From an uncultured cyanobacterium (lineage in GTDB: Bacteria; Cyanobacteriota; Cyanobacteriia; Cyanobacteriales; Nostocaceae), in assembly GCA_903848645.1 (NCBI GenBank), contig CAINGU010000088.1, forward strand, positions 89,276 to 153,275: a stretch of DNA of 64,000 bases, given 5' to 3'. The notes under the pieces were generated by a model, which ran no database searches, had not been told where the DNA came from, and saw only the letters and a program-made list of their open reading frames with translations. This document shows positions 26,924 to 48,303 of this stretch, in pieces; the stretch's first letter is position 1; every line of letters starts with the position of its first letter. A program made the position numbers and the translations under genes.

Positions 26924-28562
<1,639 letters not shown>

Positions 28563-28582: not shown

Positions 28583-28706
<124 letters not shown>

Positions 28707-29995: not shown

Positions 29996-30204
29996 TGGAT
30001 CTGATCGGGATTGAACCGATACCCTCCCTGTGAGAGTTGCACTCACACCTCGTGTAAGTTGAAAAAGCTGTGATTACACCGCAGGACTTGAACCTGCAAC
30101 CTATCATTTTCAAGATGATCGCTCTACCAATTGAGCAAGTATGTAAGCTTTTTCTGTCAGGACACAAGTGAATCCAGGAACTCTACCATTAGAGCTACAG
30201 ACCC
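29996..30204 (-). ncRNA. outer tRNA-like structure split by Y-RNA-like RNA 2 at the anticodon-arm position
   Basis: Acceptor GGGTCTG/CAGATCC (7 bp, one G-U), D arm GCTC-TAATGGTA-GAGT, anticodon-stem halves TTCCTG/CAGGGA, T arm ATCGG-TTCAATC-CCGAT. Confidence 0.75.
30049..30168 (-). ncRNA. Y-RNA-like RNA 2 with tRNA-like cargo (anticodon UGA, short variable loop)
   Basis: Lower stem CUUGUGU/ACACGAG; loops CCUGACA / AACUU; upper stem GAAAAAGCU/AGCUUUUUC; D arm GCTC-GAGC, anticodon arm ATCAT-CTTGAAA-ATGAT, T arm GCAGG-TTCAAGT-CCTGC. Confidence 0.82.
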
Positions 30205-41032: not shown

Positions 41033-42622
41033 TTACTCAAATAATTCCTGATGTTGATAAGCAAACGGTGAAACATCCTGACTCGATACAGGTTGAGCAT
41101 AAATAGCCTGATTGCGAATAGCTTGCATTTGTTCTGATTCTCGCTCCATTGCTGGGGTAAATTGCGATCGCTGTCTCAACAAATCCTCAAACTCAATTTG
41201 CCCCGGTCTACCTTGAGCAAAAGCATTCTCAGCACAACGACGCACAGCATTACCAATTTCGGCTGGAGTACAAATTCTATACTCAGCCAACAGCCTCCGC
41301 CATTGCTCATCACTCCAAGGTGAATCATTACCTGAAAAAGCTGAAAAATACTTAGCTAAATGCAAATTGAAAACTTCGTATCTTGCCCCCTCATGGGGTA
41401 AATCTACAAAAAAGATATCATCAAAACGACGCACTAATTCAGCAGGTAGCATTTCTAGACGGTTGATAGTGGCAATCGTATAAACAGGTTCTTGGTGTTC
41501 CTGCATCCAAGTTAACAACCCCGCAGACAACCGCCGGGCTACACCTCCGTCTGCATTCGAGTCCCAACCGGCAAAACCTTTATCAAAATCATCCCAGTAG
41601 AGAACGCAGGGAGCAAGGGATGTTACCAAACCGATAAATTCCTTTAAAGCTCGGTCAGGATGAGGACTACCCAATAGTACACCCCAATTAGCGGCTAACA
41701 GTGGCAAGCCCATTTTCTTGGCTGCTAACTTGGCAGATAAACTTTTACCTGTTCCTGGTGGTCCCCATAACAACATTCCCGTGGGAAACTGCAAATTATA
41801 TGTTTGTGCTTCTGGTTGCAGCAAACAGGTAATAGTCTCCAACCTTGTTGCCAGTAAATCTAACCCCGCAGATGAAGGGATATCCGGTTGAGCAATGTAC
41901 TCTAAACCCCGTCCCTTTAATTTGTTAACTTTATGATCAAGAACTAATTGGGCGATATCCTCAAGCTGATTTGCAAAACCCAGACATTGTTTCAGTAGCA
42001 AATTTATCTCGTCTCTGGGTAAACCTTGACAGGCACGAATTAGCAATTGCAATGCTTGGCTTGTTGAATTTGTTTTTGAGTAAGGATAAGCATTGGCTAA
42101 AGTCGAGTGCGAACAACAATCAAAAAACTGCTGTACAATCAGTTCTACCTGCTGTTGGTTTGGCAATGGATGAGACAGTACAGGAATAAAGGGCTGTAAT
42201 TCTAAAGGTAGTTGAACGTAAGTTTCTAGTAATACCCAGTAATTATCTTGTTGACTCCACAAAGCTTGATGATAAGCATTCAGTAATTGATAGCTAAGTT
42301 TTTGACTAATTTGGCTACCATTATCTTCCTGTAACACTCCCTCTAACAAATAAATACCTGGTTGATAGTCTGACAAAAGATACTGAAGAATATCCTTCTT
42401 GTTACTACCCCTATCAGTTGACTGTAAGATGTACTGACCTTGATGCTGAATTAATTGTTGTAGTTCGCAATAACCGGGATTCCAGAGAAAGACTGACAAA
42501 GATTGCTCCTCACCCCAATGATAAAACTGCTCTAAAATCTGCATTCTATCAGGTGTCTGATATTCCACAGCCACAATTGCCGTATTTTGGTTAGCTAAAG
42601 CAGGCCAGTCTGTCAACTTCAT
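41033..42622 (-). CDS. AAA-family ATPase (Ycf46-like architecture)
   Basis: GMLLWGPPGTGKSLSAKLAAKKMGLPLL, CVLYWDDFDKGFAG, ATINRLEMLPAELVRRFDDIFFVDLP. Confidence 0.85.
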   Translation of the reverse strand: MKLTDWPALANQNTAIVAVEYQTPDRMQILEQFYHWGEEQSLSVFLWNPGYCELQQLIQHQGQYILQSTDRGSNKKDILQYLLSDYQPGIYLLEGVLQEDNGSQISQKLSYQLLNAYHQALWSQQDNYWVLLETYVQLPLELQPFIPVLSHPLPNQQQVELIVQQFFDCCSHSTLANAYPYSKTNSTSQALQLLIRACQGLPRDEINLLLKQCLGFANQLEDIAQLVLDHKVNKLKGRGLEYIAQPDIPSSAGLDLLATRLETITCLLQPEAQTYNLQFPTGMLLWGPPGTGKSLSAKLAAKKMGLPLLAANWGVLLGSPHPDRALKEFIGLVTSLAPCVLYWDDFDKGFAGWDSNADGGVARRLSAGLLTWMQEHQEPVYTIATINRLEMLPAELVRRFDDIFFVDLPHEGARYEVFNLHLAKYFSAFSGNDSPWSDEQWRRLLAEYRICTPAEIGNAVRRCAENAFAQGRPGQIEFEDLLRQRSQFTPAMERESEQMQAIRNQAIYAQPVSSQDVSPFAYQHQELFE

Positions 42623-42717: not shown

Positions 42718-43062
42718 TTATAACCTAAGCAGAGCTTGAGCTTTAGCAAGACGCACTAAATTTTCGATAAACTCATAATGTTGCCACAGACACAGATCGC
42801 TTTCATCTAAACCTTGATTACGATTTTTGTCTAAGAGAAATTCAATTTCAGCTTGCACAACAGGTGAAAGACGGAGAGTTAAAATTTCTTGAGGAGATGG
42901 TAACTTTGCCAAAAACTCTAAAACTTCAGTTAGTCCAGAAAAACCTGTCGCCGGATTAGCACTAATTTCTCGCAATCCTAAAGCCAAAATTTGGGGTAAA
43001 TCTTCCTTGCGAGATTCTAAATTTCGCGCCATTTCATCAGGTATGTCTAAAGTAATTTGCAT
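42718..43062 (-). CDS. hypothetical (UPF0175/VapB-like N-terminus)
   Basis: MQITLDIPDEMARNLESRKEDLPQILALGLREI. Confidence 0.5.
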   Translation of the reverse strand: MQITLDIPDEMARNLESRKEDLPQILALGLREISANPATGFSGLTEVLEFLAKLPSPQEILTLRLSPVVQAEIEFLLDKNRNQGLDESDLCLWQHYEFIENLVRLAKAQALLRL

Positions 43063-43088
43063 AATTTTTGGCTCTTCGGTAATATAAA

Positions 43089-43385
43089 TTATATATAAAT
43101 TGCCTCGGCTAAAACACGCTCACGAATCCGGGGTTTAAGCCCATTCTTAGTAACAACATCCACCTTCAAGCCAAACAACTGACTTAAATAAGCTCTAAAT
43201 TCCACCAACATTATAAAAGTAGGTGCTGTTTCATAATGAACCAAAATATCTATATCACTTGCTTCCGTTTCCTCTCCCCTAGCATAAGAACCAAAGATCC
43301 CAATTTCTGTAATTTGATAAATTTCACAGAGAGATTGCTTTTGTAGTGATAAAACTTCCCGAATTTCATGAATACTTTTTATCAT
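43089..43385 (-). CDS. MNT-type minimal nucleotidyltransferase
   Basis: EIGIFGSYARGEETEASDIDILVHYE. Confidence 0.85.
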   Translation of the reverse strand: MIKSIHEIREVLSLQKQSLCEIYQITEIGIFGSYARGEETEASDIDILVHYETAPTFIMLVEFRAYLSQLFGLKVDVVTKNGLKPRIRERVLAEAIYI

Positions 43386-43415
43386 ATTTTATCGTCAGCC
43401 ACAGTTAATTTAATC

Positions 43416-43667
43416 TTAACAAACACAATTATTTCCGCCTTGCTTGCAATTTTTCCATCCCGTCCAAGACTGCACCCGACTTTCTGCTTCCATCGGTAAT
43501 ACCTCCGCCCGTTGACGAATACGAGCAAGCACTTCATCCCGTTGCCCATAACGTTTTTGCAACAAATCACGGACTTCTTGCTCCATCGAAATCCCCTTTT
43601 GTGCCGCCAAACGTTTAATGCGCTCAAGCAACTCATCGGATATATTGCGAATGGTAATTGTTGCCAT
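43416..43667 (-). CDS. FitA-like ribbon-helix-helix antitoxin
   Basis: MATITIRNISDELLERIKRLAAQKGISMEQEVRDLLQK. Confidence 0.8.
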   Translation of the reverse strand: MATITIRNISDELLERIKRLAAQKGISMEQEVRDLLQKRYGQRDEVLARIRQRAEVLPMEAESRVQSWTGWKNCKQGGNNCVC

Positions 43668-43702
43668 ACTGCCTCCTTTGCTAGTGCTAGTCTACTACTG
43701 GC

Positions 43703-44185
43703 TCATGTTGGCGTTTGATGATAGCTCTGTAAATCTCTGTCTAGTGACCAGATAAATACTTCACTCATGGGGAAACGTTTACACGATTTATTAAATTCTT
43801 CAATGATGCTGAGATCCCCGAAGCTTGTTCCTTCTTGTTTATCGGGAGCTTTGTTTTTACCAGCCAACTCCGGGAACTGGTCAATCCATAACATTATCTC
43901 TGTTGTGTTTGGGAATGTAGTAGTTCGCCAGGGAGCTTCACCTGTGAATGCTTCTTTAACTGCTTTAACAAAACGTAAGGCTGTTATCCTTCGCATTGTG
44001 CCGTCGCCGTTTTGGGCAATATGGTTGCCTGTTTCGAGTATCGTCGCCATAGGCAACAGAAAAGTACAGCCAGATTGAGCATAGGTCTGAAAATCTTCGA
44101 GAACTGATGCTCTATGTTGATTATAGTTGGGAACGTTAAGTATTTCCAGGAATATGCTGGTATCAATCAGACAAATACTACTCAT
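43703..44185 (-). CDS. PIN-like nuclease candidate
   Basis: ICLIDTSIFLEIL, TILETGNHI, SFGDLSIIEEF, WSLDRDL (spaced acidic residues). Confidence 0.6.
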   Translation of the reverse strand: MSSICLIDTSIFLEILNVPNYNQHRASVLEDFQTYAQSGCTFLLPMATILETGNHIAQNGDGTMRRITALRFVKAVKEAFTGEAPWRTTTFPNTTEIMLWIDQFPELAGKNKAPDKQEGTSFGDLSIIEEFNKSCKRFPMSEVFIWSLDRDLQSYHQTPT

Positions 44186-45590
44186 TACTGTACTCCTGTA
44201 AACGAGACAGCCAGGCCAGAGCTTGCTGTTTTCTGTCTTCAGGTGTGTGCGGTGACTTAACGAACCTATCCACTACTCCAGCAGTTACCAGTTGTCCTAA
44301 TGGTCCTTGCGATATGAGACTGGGGAAATCATACATATCCCCAAGCCTGATCAGGCGACTATTTCCTTGATTCCCTTCCTCTGGATCTCGGAAACAAAAG
44401 ACTACATCGCCTAAAGCAGCATCGGGTAAAGCATCCATTAGGGCTGGGTTGTGTGTGGAAAGCAGCACTCGTAATTTACGCCGCTCGGCGATATCTCGGA
44501 TGCTAGACAGTAGATGCTTGGCACGGTTGGGATGAACGCCGTTGTCAATTTCTTCGATAACTACCAAACTTCCTTCAGTTGCTGATAGCATAGCTGCTGC
44601 GATCGCTAACACCCGCAATGTGCCATCTGATAACAATGCGGCTTCACAATAGCGACGGGTATTACCAAAAGTTTCCGCTAGTTGCACCATGACTTCATCT
44701 CGTGGACCAATAAGGAAATCTAGCCCTTCTATAGCCTGTTCTGGTAAACTTTGGATAAAGTTGAGAATGGTCTGTTGATTTTCTGGTTGGTTCTCCCATA
44801 AGCGATAGAGAACGCTGGATAAATTAGTACCATCTTCTTGTAATCGCTTATCAGATTTGAAGCTGTACTCGCGCATTTTGGCGGGAACGGGATCTAGAAA
44901 CAGGATATTCTGTAAGACTCGTTGATATTCGCGGACTGTTTCAGGAATTATCTTTTGGGAATTTTCATATTTGGCATCAAAACGGGCAGGGCTGTCTAAT
45001 TGCACAAAGATAGCCATTTGATCACTGCACGTTATTTGTGGGTTGTTCTTTCCTTTGGTAAAATTGTTATACGCGACACTAACATCAGTATTTATCCCTT
45101 CAGAAGGCTGATTTAGCTCATATAGCGGGACTGAATTTGTCGAGTCAGCAATTCGTTCGCTACTGATATGCAGTTCTCCGTCACGCACATTGAGGGTTAT
45201 ATTAAGTTCGTTCCACTCTGTTGAGTCTAAACGGCAACCGATAGTAAAACTTGATTCTCCCCGATGACACAAATCATTAACTCGACCACGTACAACTCGC
45301 TCGGCGCTATTCACCGCATATTGAATGCTGGAGAGTTTTTGCCCTTGTGCCAGCCATGACAGAAAGCGCAAACCTTCCAGGGCGTTACTTTTACCTGCGG
45401 CATTAGCTCCTATTAGGACAGTCAAAGATCCTAGAGGCAATCGGCTTTTCGACAGGTGGGACAGTGGGACTGCCGAACTGTTCAAAGTTCCGCTTGTACT
45501 GTAACTTTTAAAGTTGGCGAGGGTAAATTCGGTTAGCATGGCACTCATCTTACAATTTTCCTCTAAATGCTCGATTTTATAGTGAAGCAA
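44178..45590 (-). CDS. RecF/OLD-like AAA ATPase
   Basis: LTVLIGANAAGKSNALEGLRFL; LVVIEEIDNGVHPNRA; LLSTHNPALMD; overlaps PIN-like gene by 8 bp. Confidence 0.85.
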   Translation of the reverse strand: MLHYKIEHLEENCKMSAMLTEFTLANFKSYSTSGTLNSSAVPLSHLSKSRLPLGSLTVLIGANAAGKSNALEGLRFLSWLAQGQKLSSIQYAVNSAERVVRGRVNDLCHRGESSFTIGCRLDSTEWNELNITLNVRDGELHISSERIADSTNSVPLYELNQPSEGINTDVSVAYNNFTKGKNNPQITCSDQMAIFVQLDSPARFDAKYENSQKIIPETVREYQRVLQNILFLDPVPAKMREYSFKSDKRLQEDGTNLSSVLYRLWENQPENQQTILNFIQSLPEQAIEGLDFLIGPRDEVMVQLAETFGNTRRYCEAALLSDGTLRVLAIAAAMLSATEGSLVVIEEIDNGVHPNRAKHLLSSIRDIAERRKLRVLLSTHNPALMDALPDAALGDVVFCFRDPEEGNQGNSRLIRLGDMYDFPSLISQGPLGQLVTAGVVDRFVKSPHTPEDRKQQALAWLSRLQEYSNE

Positions 45591-46171: not shown

Positions 46172-46804
46172 ATGGCAATCGCCAAAACTCGTACTAACGG
46201 TAATACTCGCCATACAGCTAATGGTAAAGTATCAGCGAAAACAAATAACACAGCTACCGCAACTAAATCTAAGGCAGTAAAGGCTTCACCACAACAGGAA
46301 GCATTAGCCTTATTGAAGGAATTGCGAAATTTAATCTTCAAAGAGTACGGGATTAAATTACAGTTACGAGACTCCAGAATTTCTACCAAAATCGGTCATG
46401 CAGCCCGTGAAAAACTCGGACTTGATATTGCTGCTCAAGTTAAAAAGAAAGGTGGTAATAAAAAGTTTGATTGGCAGAAATGGAACAGCAAATTATTTCC
46501 TAAATTGTTTGGACAACCAGATGCCCTCAAATATCCACCAGAAGTAGTTGCTATTTTCATGAGTATGCTGTACGACACAATCAGCAAAGACCCGGAGCAA
46601 GCAATAGCTGATTTAGTCGAATTCAACCGGGCATCACTAGAACGTCGCAACTCATTCCAAGAACAAGAAGTGGAAGAACTGGATGATTTAGATAACGAAC
46701 TTGACGAGGACTTGGACGAAGATGAGGATGATGACGATGAACTCGATAAGGACTTGGATGAAGATGACGATTTAGATGAAGATGATGAGGACGATGACGA
46801 GTAA
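46172..46804 (+). CDS. hypothetical protein with poly-Asp/Glu tail
   Basis: 210-aa ORF. Confidence 0.6.
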   Translation: MAIAKTRTNGNTRHTANGKVSAKTNNTATATKSKAVKASPQQEALALLKELRNLIFKEYGIKLQLRDSRISTKIGHAAREKLGLDIAAQVKKKGGNKKFDWQKWNSKLFPKLFGQPDALKYPPEVVAIFMSMLYDTISKDPEQAIADLVEFNRASLERRNSFQEQEVEELDDLDNELDEDLDEDEDDDDELDKDLDEDDDLDEDDEDDDE

Positions 46805-47037
46805 TTGATTCTCAACAAGTGACAGAATTATAACTACAAATAACCATGTATTGCTACCAACAATACAGGTTATTTTTTTATTGAATTTGAACAAAATAAT
46901 GCAGAAAAATCAGAATTATTACTTCTTGTAATATTTCAAACAAACTTTTAAATTTATCAATTGTCATTGTCTAAATGCGGAATTAATTAGAAACTGAAAA
47001 CATCTAATTTCATTTTAAAAGCACAAAAATTTATCCT

Positions 47038-47280
47038 ATGAGCCATAGCTTGTATGAAGAAATAGGAGTCATCCGCCAAGTTATGCTAACAGGAATACCT
47101 ATGAACCATAGCTTATATGACGAAGTAGAAATCATCCGCCAAGTTATGCTAACAGGAATGCCTATAAAAAAACTAAATTTAGTAAAACAAACTTTGGAAA
47201 GAATGAACGAATTGGAATTTCAGCGAATTGCATCTTTCGATGCGGTTTCTATGAGAAAAACAGAAAATATCAAGGAGTAA
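47038..47280 (+). CDS. small protein with internal duplication
   Basis: MSHSLYEEIGVIRQVMLTGIP / MNHSLYDEVEIIRQVMLTGMP. Confidence 0.45.
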   Translation: MSHSLYEEIGVIRQVMLTGIPMNHSLYDEVEIIRQVMLTGMPIKKLNLVKQTLERMNELEFQRIASFDAVSMRKTENIKE

Positions 47281-47285
47281 TTCTC

Positions 47286-47717
47286 ATGCTGAAGACTCGC
47301 AAAGCCACTAAAACAGCCTCTACCTCTAAAACTAAAAAGCATATTCCAGCTTTAGAGCGAGTAATTACTTATCAGGAAAAAGTCCACTTGATGGTAATTG
47401 AGGTATTACGGGAAGAATCGGGGAGAGAATTAGCAGCTACCGCCCGATTTAATGAACAAGAGTTTGATTGGGAAAAACATAACACACAGTTTCGTAACGA
47501 TTATCTGAACACACCATTGAAAGAATTGGTGAATTATGCCCGCAAACTTTACGGGTTGAATAATCTGGATGAAATTCGAGATAGACGTGCTGCTCATAAA
47601 GCTGTTCGCTCTAAACGCATGGAGGGACTTAATGGTTTAAGTAATAACTCAGATGACTGGATAGATGACGATTTTGAACAGGATGAAGATGACGAAGATT
47701 TAGAAGTTGAAGATTAA
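47286..47717 (+). CDS. conserved cyanobacterial hypothetical, paralogue of 47914-48303
   Basis: LMVIEVLREESGRELAATARFNEQEFDWEKHNTQF. Confidence 0.65.
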   Translation: MLKTRKATKTASTSKTKKHIPALERVITYQEKVHLMVIEVLREESGRELAATARFNEQEFDWEKHNTQFRNDYLNTPLKELVNYARKLYGLNNLDEIRDRRAAHKAVRSKRMEGLNGLSNNSDDWIDDDFEQDEDDEDLEVED

Positions 47718-47722
47718 TTATT

Positions 47723-47750
47723 ATGCCCCGATTCAAATAATTCGGGGCAT
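47723..47750 (+). terminator. rho-independent-type terminator
   Basis: ATGCCCCGA-N10-TCGGGGCAT followed by TTTTATTT. Confidence 0.75.
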
Positions 47751-47913
47751 TTTATTTGAGCGCATAGCTAATACAACAAACAGAATTGAAGACAATAATT
47801 GCAACTGAATTTTAGCTTTAGCAATCAGAAAGTGAATTTTAATTCAGAAGGCATCTGTCGATGCTATCTATGCGAGATCCAAGTAAGTAATTCGTTAATC
47901 AAAGGACAATGCT

Positions 47914-48303
47914 ATGAAACGTAATCAGCAACAAACTAAAGTTTTAGAAAAAGCGATGGAATATCAAGGTCAGGAAAATCCAATTAAACGGAAACGTAAT
48001 CAACAAGAAACCAAAGCTTTGGAAAAAGTTATGGGATATCAAGATAAAGTACGATTAATGGTACTCGAAGTTTTAAGAGAGGAAACTGGACGAGAACTCG
48101 CTGCTAAAGCCCGGTTTAATCAAGAAGAATTCGACTGGAACGAACACAACACAGAGTTTCGTCTGGACTATGCTGATACTCCAATCAATGAACTGTTAGC
48201 TTACGCTAAACGTTTCTATGGATTAAAGGATTTGGATGCAGTGCGCGAGCGACGCAAGGCTCACAAACAACAACGTGCAGCTAGATTTGCTGAAGCATCT
48301 TAA
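47914..48303 (+). CDS. conserved cyanobacterial hypothetical, paralogue of 47286-47717
   Basis: LMVLEVLREETGRELAAKARFNQEEFDWNEHNTEF. Confidence 0.65.
   Translation: MKRNQQQTKVLEKAMEYQGQENPIKRKRNQQETKALEKVMGYQDKVRLMVLEVLREETGRELAAKARFNQEEFDWNEHNTEFRLDYADTPINELLAYAKRFYGLKDLDAVRERRKAHKQQRAARFAEAS

Follow-up and report, generated by a model that had tools for sequence, protein, structure and literature searches.

Two overlapping minus-strand genes in the window (the whole 64,000-nucleotide stretch of DNA analysed) encode an ABC-type ATPase and a predicted PIN-fold nuclease, and on sequence grounds this pair is a member of PDC-M07, a phage-defence candidate already catalogued in PADLOC-DB 2.0. 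The pair probably represents a candidate defence system carried as plasmid cargo, in which the ATPase would silence a PIN ribonuclease until phage is sensed, whereupon translation would stop. PDC-M07 is widespread, occurring in cyanobacteria, proteobacteria, methanogens, and on a Lactococcus plasmid; a literature search found no functional study of it, although it may have been tested under another name.

The ATPase and its PIN-fold partner

The five minus-strand open reading frames of the original prediction are all present at the positions given, including that of the ATPase (44178–45548), although translation of the latter probably begins at the ATG at 45548, yielding 456 residues in line with the annotation of a close relative, NZ_CP051207.1, rather than at the TTG at 45590 first assumed. 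The product matches PADLOC model PDC-M07A (hmmscan, 5e-210, 696 bits) as well as the Pfam families AAA_21 (6.6e-30) and AAA_15, which upholds the predicted ATPase class. It is OLD/AriA/AbiLi-like, and also matches the PADLOC model for AriA of the PARIS system (3.4e-29). The Walker A (GANAAGKSN), signature (LSDGT), Walker B (VVIEEIDN), and H motifs are kept in 42 homologues, and the ABC-ATPase motifs of the window copy are intact as read from its sequence; relative to M07A, the window protein carries a short extra loop around residues 18–29. Its AlphaFold (AF2) model (pLDDT 87.9) adopts a fold like the heads of SMC, Rad50, and retron PtuA. Neither TOPRIM nor HEPN domains were matched on the ATPase, and about 85 residues remain past the H motif.

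The second gene (43703–44185, minus strand) encodes 160 residues, and its start overlaps the ATPase stop by the predicted 8 nt (44178–44185, minus strand), as read from the sequence. The protein matches PADLOC model PDC-M07B (hmmscan, 1.1e-78, 261 bits). Pfam returns only a sub-threshold PIN_12 match for the window protein and no family for seven diverse M07B homologues, which is why annotated relatives label M07B a 'hypothetical protein'. The AF2 model of M07B is of high quality (pLDDT 95.8, pTM 0.89), and the top Foldseek matches in the PDB are almost all PIN proteins: the best is the VapC20 toxin (E 8.5e-4, TM 0.58/0.70), followed by FitB and other VapC or VapBC proteins. VapC20 is a toxin that cleaves the sarcin–ricin loop of the ribosome. 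A comparison of the M07B PIN profile with PDB chains by sequence gave no significant match, and the PIN fold therefore rests on the model. The four acidic residues of the PIN catalytic tetrad (D8, E51, D124, and D149) show no substitution among 52 of 52 aligned M07B homologues at identities down to about 29%. M07B is predicted with high confidence to be a PIN-fold protein, and fold prediction, a negative outcome of which was to have refuted the original assignment, came out in its favour.

Both window proteins match M07A and M07B over their full length, with the same gene order and pairing as in PDC-M07. Nothing essential differs: the window proteins fall close to models PDLC04392 (M07A) and PDLC04395 (M07B), as expected of a typical member. 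The suggestion that the PIN pairing might be a new variant is accordingly withdrawn, since both proteins match the catalogued candidate; the broader idea of an abortive-infection pair of ATPase and PIN nuclease, by contrast, finds good support in co-conservation and in the predicted fold.

The likeness of the ATPase to SMC, Rad50, and PtuA heads could also suggest that it loads phage DNA with the PIN protein, which would then cut that DNA, in the manner of Septu, Gabija, or SMC-type machines, and the location of related copies within restriction–modification (R-M) and BREX operons, described below, would suit DNA targeting. However, the closest solved relatives of the PIN protein are VapC-type RNases such as VapC20, and its 160 residues include no DNA-binding extension, making a DNA-directed nuclease quite improbable.

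That the ATPase and PIN genes belong together is apparent from their distribution. When GTDB genomes were searched with the PIN protein alone, an ATPase gene lay directly upstream on the same strand in 63 of 64 loci, the sole exception being an N-terminally truncated PIN fragment; this conservation of neighbourhood, likewise proposed as a check, spans cyanobacteria, gamma-, beta-, alpha-, and deltaproteobacteria, Methanothrix, Chloroflexota, Salinivenus, Cloacimonadota, and Myxococcales. The same picture emerged from 386 genomes of the phylum that were sampled separately, with an ATPase beside PIN in 28 of 30 fetched loci and fragments in the other two. Gene overlap amounts to 8 nt at 29 loci, 4 nt at 25, and 1 nt at 8 (62 loci, a count that takes in closely related and duplicate records), and the Lactococcus plasmid homologue also shows the 8-nt overlap. 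Pairwise identities of the two proteins are correlated across 75 loci (r = 0.94), which measures co-inheritance rather than interaction. In both genes dN is well below dS (in the comparison with locus L014, dN/dS is near 0.2 in the PIN gene and near 0.1 in the ATPase gene), indicating from sequence comparison that purifying selection acts on both. Taken by gene order and sequence, the ATPase and PIN genes form a co-conserved, translationally coupled unit. Searches of the locus with Rfam found no structured RNA, and a promoter and terminator scan gave signals no more numerous than in shuffled sequence.

ATPase genes do occur without PIN. Those in two genomes (G087 and G243) are broken or truncated, and a third (L133; G103:C1:418783-420132) is a chromosomal, intact-looking M07A of 449 residues, about 90–95% identical. 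An HsdS fragment lies upstream of this copy and a small insertion directly follows its signature motif; the copy is decaying, and its strain also possesses an intact plasmid-borne pair. Two further genomes (G091 and G172) hold distant, intact-looking ATPases with no detectable PIN, and the ATPase may therefore have other roles. PIN without the ATPase, by contrast, is found only as truncated fragments. This asymmetry is suggestive, fitting a toxin that may be tolerated only beside its ATPase.

Three neighbouring genes from other cassettes

The original prediction treated all five genes as one module. This five-gene arrangement is rejected, as the three downstream genes are not co-conserved with the pair and adjoin it only in a few Nostocales. 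Judged from gene content, they are orphaned pieces of other cassettes beside an intact ATPase–PIN pair, and can be disregarded when considering it.

The first of the three (43416–43667, minus strand) is, as predicted, a FitA/VapB-like RHH antitoxin gene outside the pair (Pfam FitA-like_RHH, 5.7e-16). Such RHH proteins usually partner PIN toxins and this one begins 36 nt past the PIN stop, so that the two might be read as a VapBC/FitAB toxin–antitoxin pair with the ATPase a mere neighbour. The RHH, however, has a different toxin of its own: its intact relatives are 74 residues long, end in RVQSWKSEGRP, and are followed by a 130-residue VapC-like toxin in two genomes (G103:C1 and G444:C146), in the latter of which the RHH–VapC pair immediately precedes the plasmid AAA gene that is also present in the window. 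The RHH is, moreover, missing at nearly all other PIN loci, where the ATPase is always present, and a PIN–RHH pair is extremely unlikely. In VapBC and FitAB the PIN protein is neutralised by an adjacent RHH, whereas the window RHH is not co-conserved with PIN and belongs to another VapC. By sequence comparison it is the antitoxin of a separate vapBC pair; in the window its C-terminus is altered and its VapC-like toxin has been lost.

The second (43089–43385, minus strand) is the predicted MNT-type nucleotidyltransferase (Pfam NTP_transf_2, 1.9e-19), also outside the pair. It is PDC-S09-like (PADLOC, 6e-29), its MntA score of 46.5 falls under the 60-bit cut-off, and it is missing from nearly all other pair loci. 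The observation that it has no HEPN partner is borne out, no HEPN match being found among neighbouring open reading frames; in MntA–HepT (type VII) systems a HEPN (HepT) gene lies beside MNT, and a role as a type VII antitoxin is rejected.

The third, ORF5 (42718–43062, minus strand; 114 residues), had been considered VapB-like. It has no VapB match in Pfam and is one of a cyanobacterial family whose members usually precede a CCEYC-type HNH open reading frame, as in seven loci (L153, L154, L156–L158, L160, and L045), and its identification as VapB is therefore rejected. ORF5 lies outside the pair and is an orphan, since the HNH gene that would normally lie downstream of it is absent in the window. 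At L045, the R-M region that includes hsdS also holds the order MNT–ORF5–HNH, on the upstream side of hsdS. The Anabaena cylindrica plasmid pANACY.01 has the same gene row as the window, but there (L144, 9736–11429) ORF5 is separated by an IscB gene from a small HNH open reading frame, the usual partner of ORF5, which suggests that IscB-linked DNA split the ORF5–HNH pair.

Plasmids and defence operons as settings

Between positions 28000 and 52000, 55% of the window aligns at 95.5% to the Dolichospermum flos-aquae plasmid pAfl69 and 44% aligns at 95% to a DET69 plasmid, the alignments taking in the AAA–ParA–ParB genes that neighbour the pair. On these alignments, the contig looks plasmid-like, of a Dolichospermum type, with the pair apparently carried as cargo. 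The same is suggested by Nostoc plasmids, which match the window at 46172–48303 (plus strand) but not over the ATPase and PIN genes. This matching region contains three neighbouring genes, two of which (47286–47717 and 47914–48303) are clearly paralogous, and the first (46172–46804, plus strand) encodes a protein with a long tail rich in the acidic residues Asp and Glu. On the Nostoc plasmids, relatives carry the annotation 'primosomal protein'. The AAA ATPase adjoining ParA/ParB (41033–42622, minus strand) is conserved on Nostocales plasmids, and has a weak match, far under the cut-off, to the anti-phage ATPase IteA (5.7e-16). Genes for tRNA-Leu(caa) and tRNA-Ser(tga) lie at 28608–28682 and 30072–30146 on this otherwise plasmid-like contig. 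A search of phage records gave no match, and IMG/VR gave one weak match only.

Plasmid-borne pairs are known from Dolichospermum, Anabaena, Photobacterium, Vibrio, Acinetobacter, and Lactococcus. This distribution, together with the AAA–ParA–ParB genes adjoining the pair in the window, would be expected if the ATPase were an antitoxin and the PIN protein a toxin, kept for plasmid stability rather than for blocking phage. Many other copies, however, are chromosomal or lie inside R-M or BREX operons, and ABC ATPases of this superfamily act in known systems as stable sensors rather than labile antitoxins (PMC12409363). An addiction module is therefore unlikely to be the main explanation, although addiction and defence roles are not mutually exclusive.

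Relatives of the pair are found within other defence operons. The order hsdS–ATPase–PIN–hsdR is found in eight genome loci (L040, L061, L063, L065–L068, and L075) and also on the Photobacterium plasmid pAQU1, in which every junction overlaps by a few nucleotides; one small open reading frame sometimes precedes hsdR. In L057 and L062, hsdR lies downstream of the pair and hsdS further upstream. Five loci (L081, L082, L086, L096, and L098) have the BREX order brxC–ATPase–PIN–pglX, with the BrxC and PglX flanks supported by PADLOC scores in representative loci, and pglX is present in L092 and L093 too, both of which are cut off upstream. Bracketing inside another defence operon is thereby seen in 13 loci (eight hsdS–hsdR and five brxC–pglX). 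Two-sided bracketing by the parts of one operon would be hard to obtain by chance, as judged from gene order, and embedding in known defence systems is the criterion that defines such candidates (PMC12988326, PMC12255303). The window copy is not itself embedded in an R-M or BREX operon; close relatives from its own order are, with hsdS lying immediately upstream of the pair (L040, L045, and L052).

Proposed mechanism and relation to known systems

The preferred reading of the pair is that of a sensor holding a ribonuclease in check. An ATPase oligomer would bind the PIN ribonuclease and keep it silent until some product or event of phage infection altered the state of the ATPase, whereupon the PIN protein would be freed or activated to cut tRNA, rRNA, or mRNA. 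Translation would halt, and the phage would be unable to multiply. In PARIS, AriB stays sequestered by AriA and cuts tRNA once a phage trigger has freed it, and ABC ATPases of this superfamily serve as sensors by which a nuclease is kept inactive (PMC12409363). In tested pairs such as AarT:AAA-D29, AAA-D29 ATPases neutralise RNase-like and TOPRIM toxins (PMC10440598).

A more specific role, tentative and rather unlikely but drawn by analogy with PrrC and PARIS, is that PDC-M07 guards other defences. The ATPase would monitor R-M or BREX machinery, or phage anti-restriction proteins, and would fire PIN when the first line of defence is blocked, as PrrC and PARIS do. This guard role is suggested by the repeated insertion of the pair at two precise points, the hsdS–hsdR junction and the brxC–pglX junction. 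The gene for the PrrC anticodon nuclease lies in the hsdS–hsdR slot of a type I R-M operon, and its occupation of that same slot makes a guard role plausible.

The anatomy of PDC-M07 is now defined as a PIN nuclease, true to its predicted fold, with an invariant tetrad, and an ABC ATPase without a nuclease of its own, together showing a preference for slots within R-M and BREX operons. This opens the concrete question of whether PARIS- or PrrC-like sensors can use PIN RNases as their effectors. The sensor–ribonuclease logic proposed for the pair is shared with PARIS (ATPase and TOPRIM tRNase) and PrrC (ATPase and HEPN tRNase), the effector here being PIN.

PARIS (AriA/AriB) resembles the pair in having two genes, for an ABC ATPase of AAA_15/AAA_21 type and a small nuclease, but its effector AriB is a TOPRIM/DUF4435 protein rather than PIN. 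PrrC likewise joins an ABC ATPase to an RNase, and several relatives of the pair occupy its hsdS–hsdR slot; it is, however, a single protein with a HEPN nuclease and an ATPase of a different family, whereas the window encodes two proteins, of AAA_21 and PIN type. In PrrC and RloC the ABC ATPase is fused to HEPN, while the window ATPase has no HEPN match and its PIN partner is separate. The C-terminal TOPRIM carried on the ATPase in OLD and Gabija GajA is absent from the window ATPase, and the HNH partner PtuB of Septu (PtuAB) is here replaced by PIN. AbiL, Septu, and NetFlax AAA-D29 all combine an ATPase of the same broad superfamily with a separate nuclease, but their partners are RloB/TOPRIM, HNH, or AarT proteins as opposed to PIN. 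PIN partners within NetFlax are described with ImmA (D25) and not with the AAA hub, whereas in PDC-M07 it is the ATPase that is paired with PIN.
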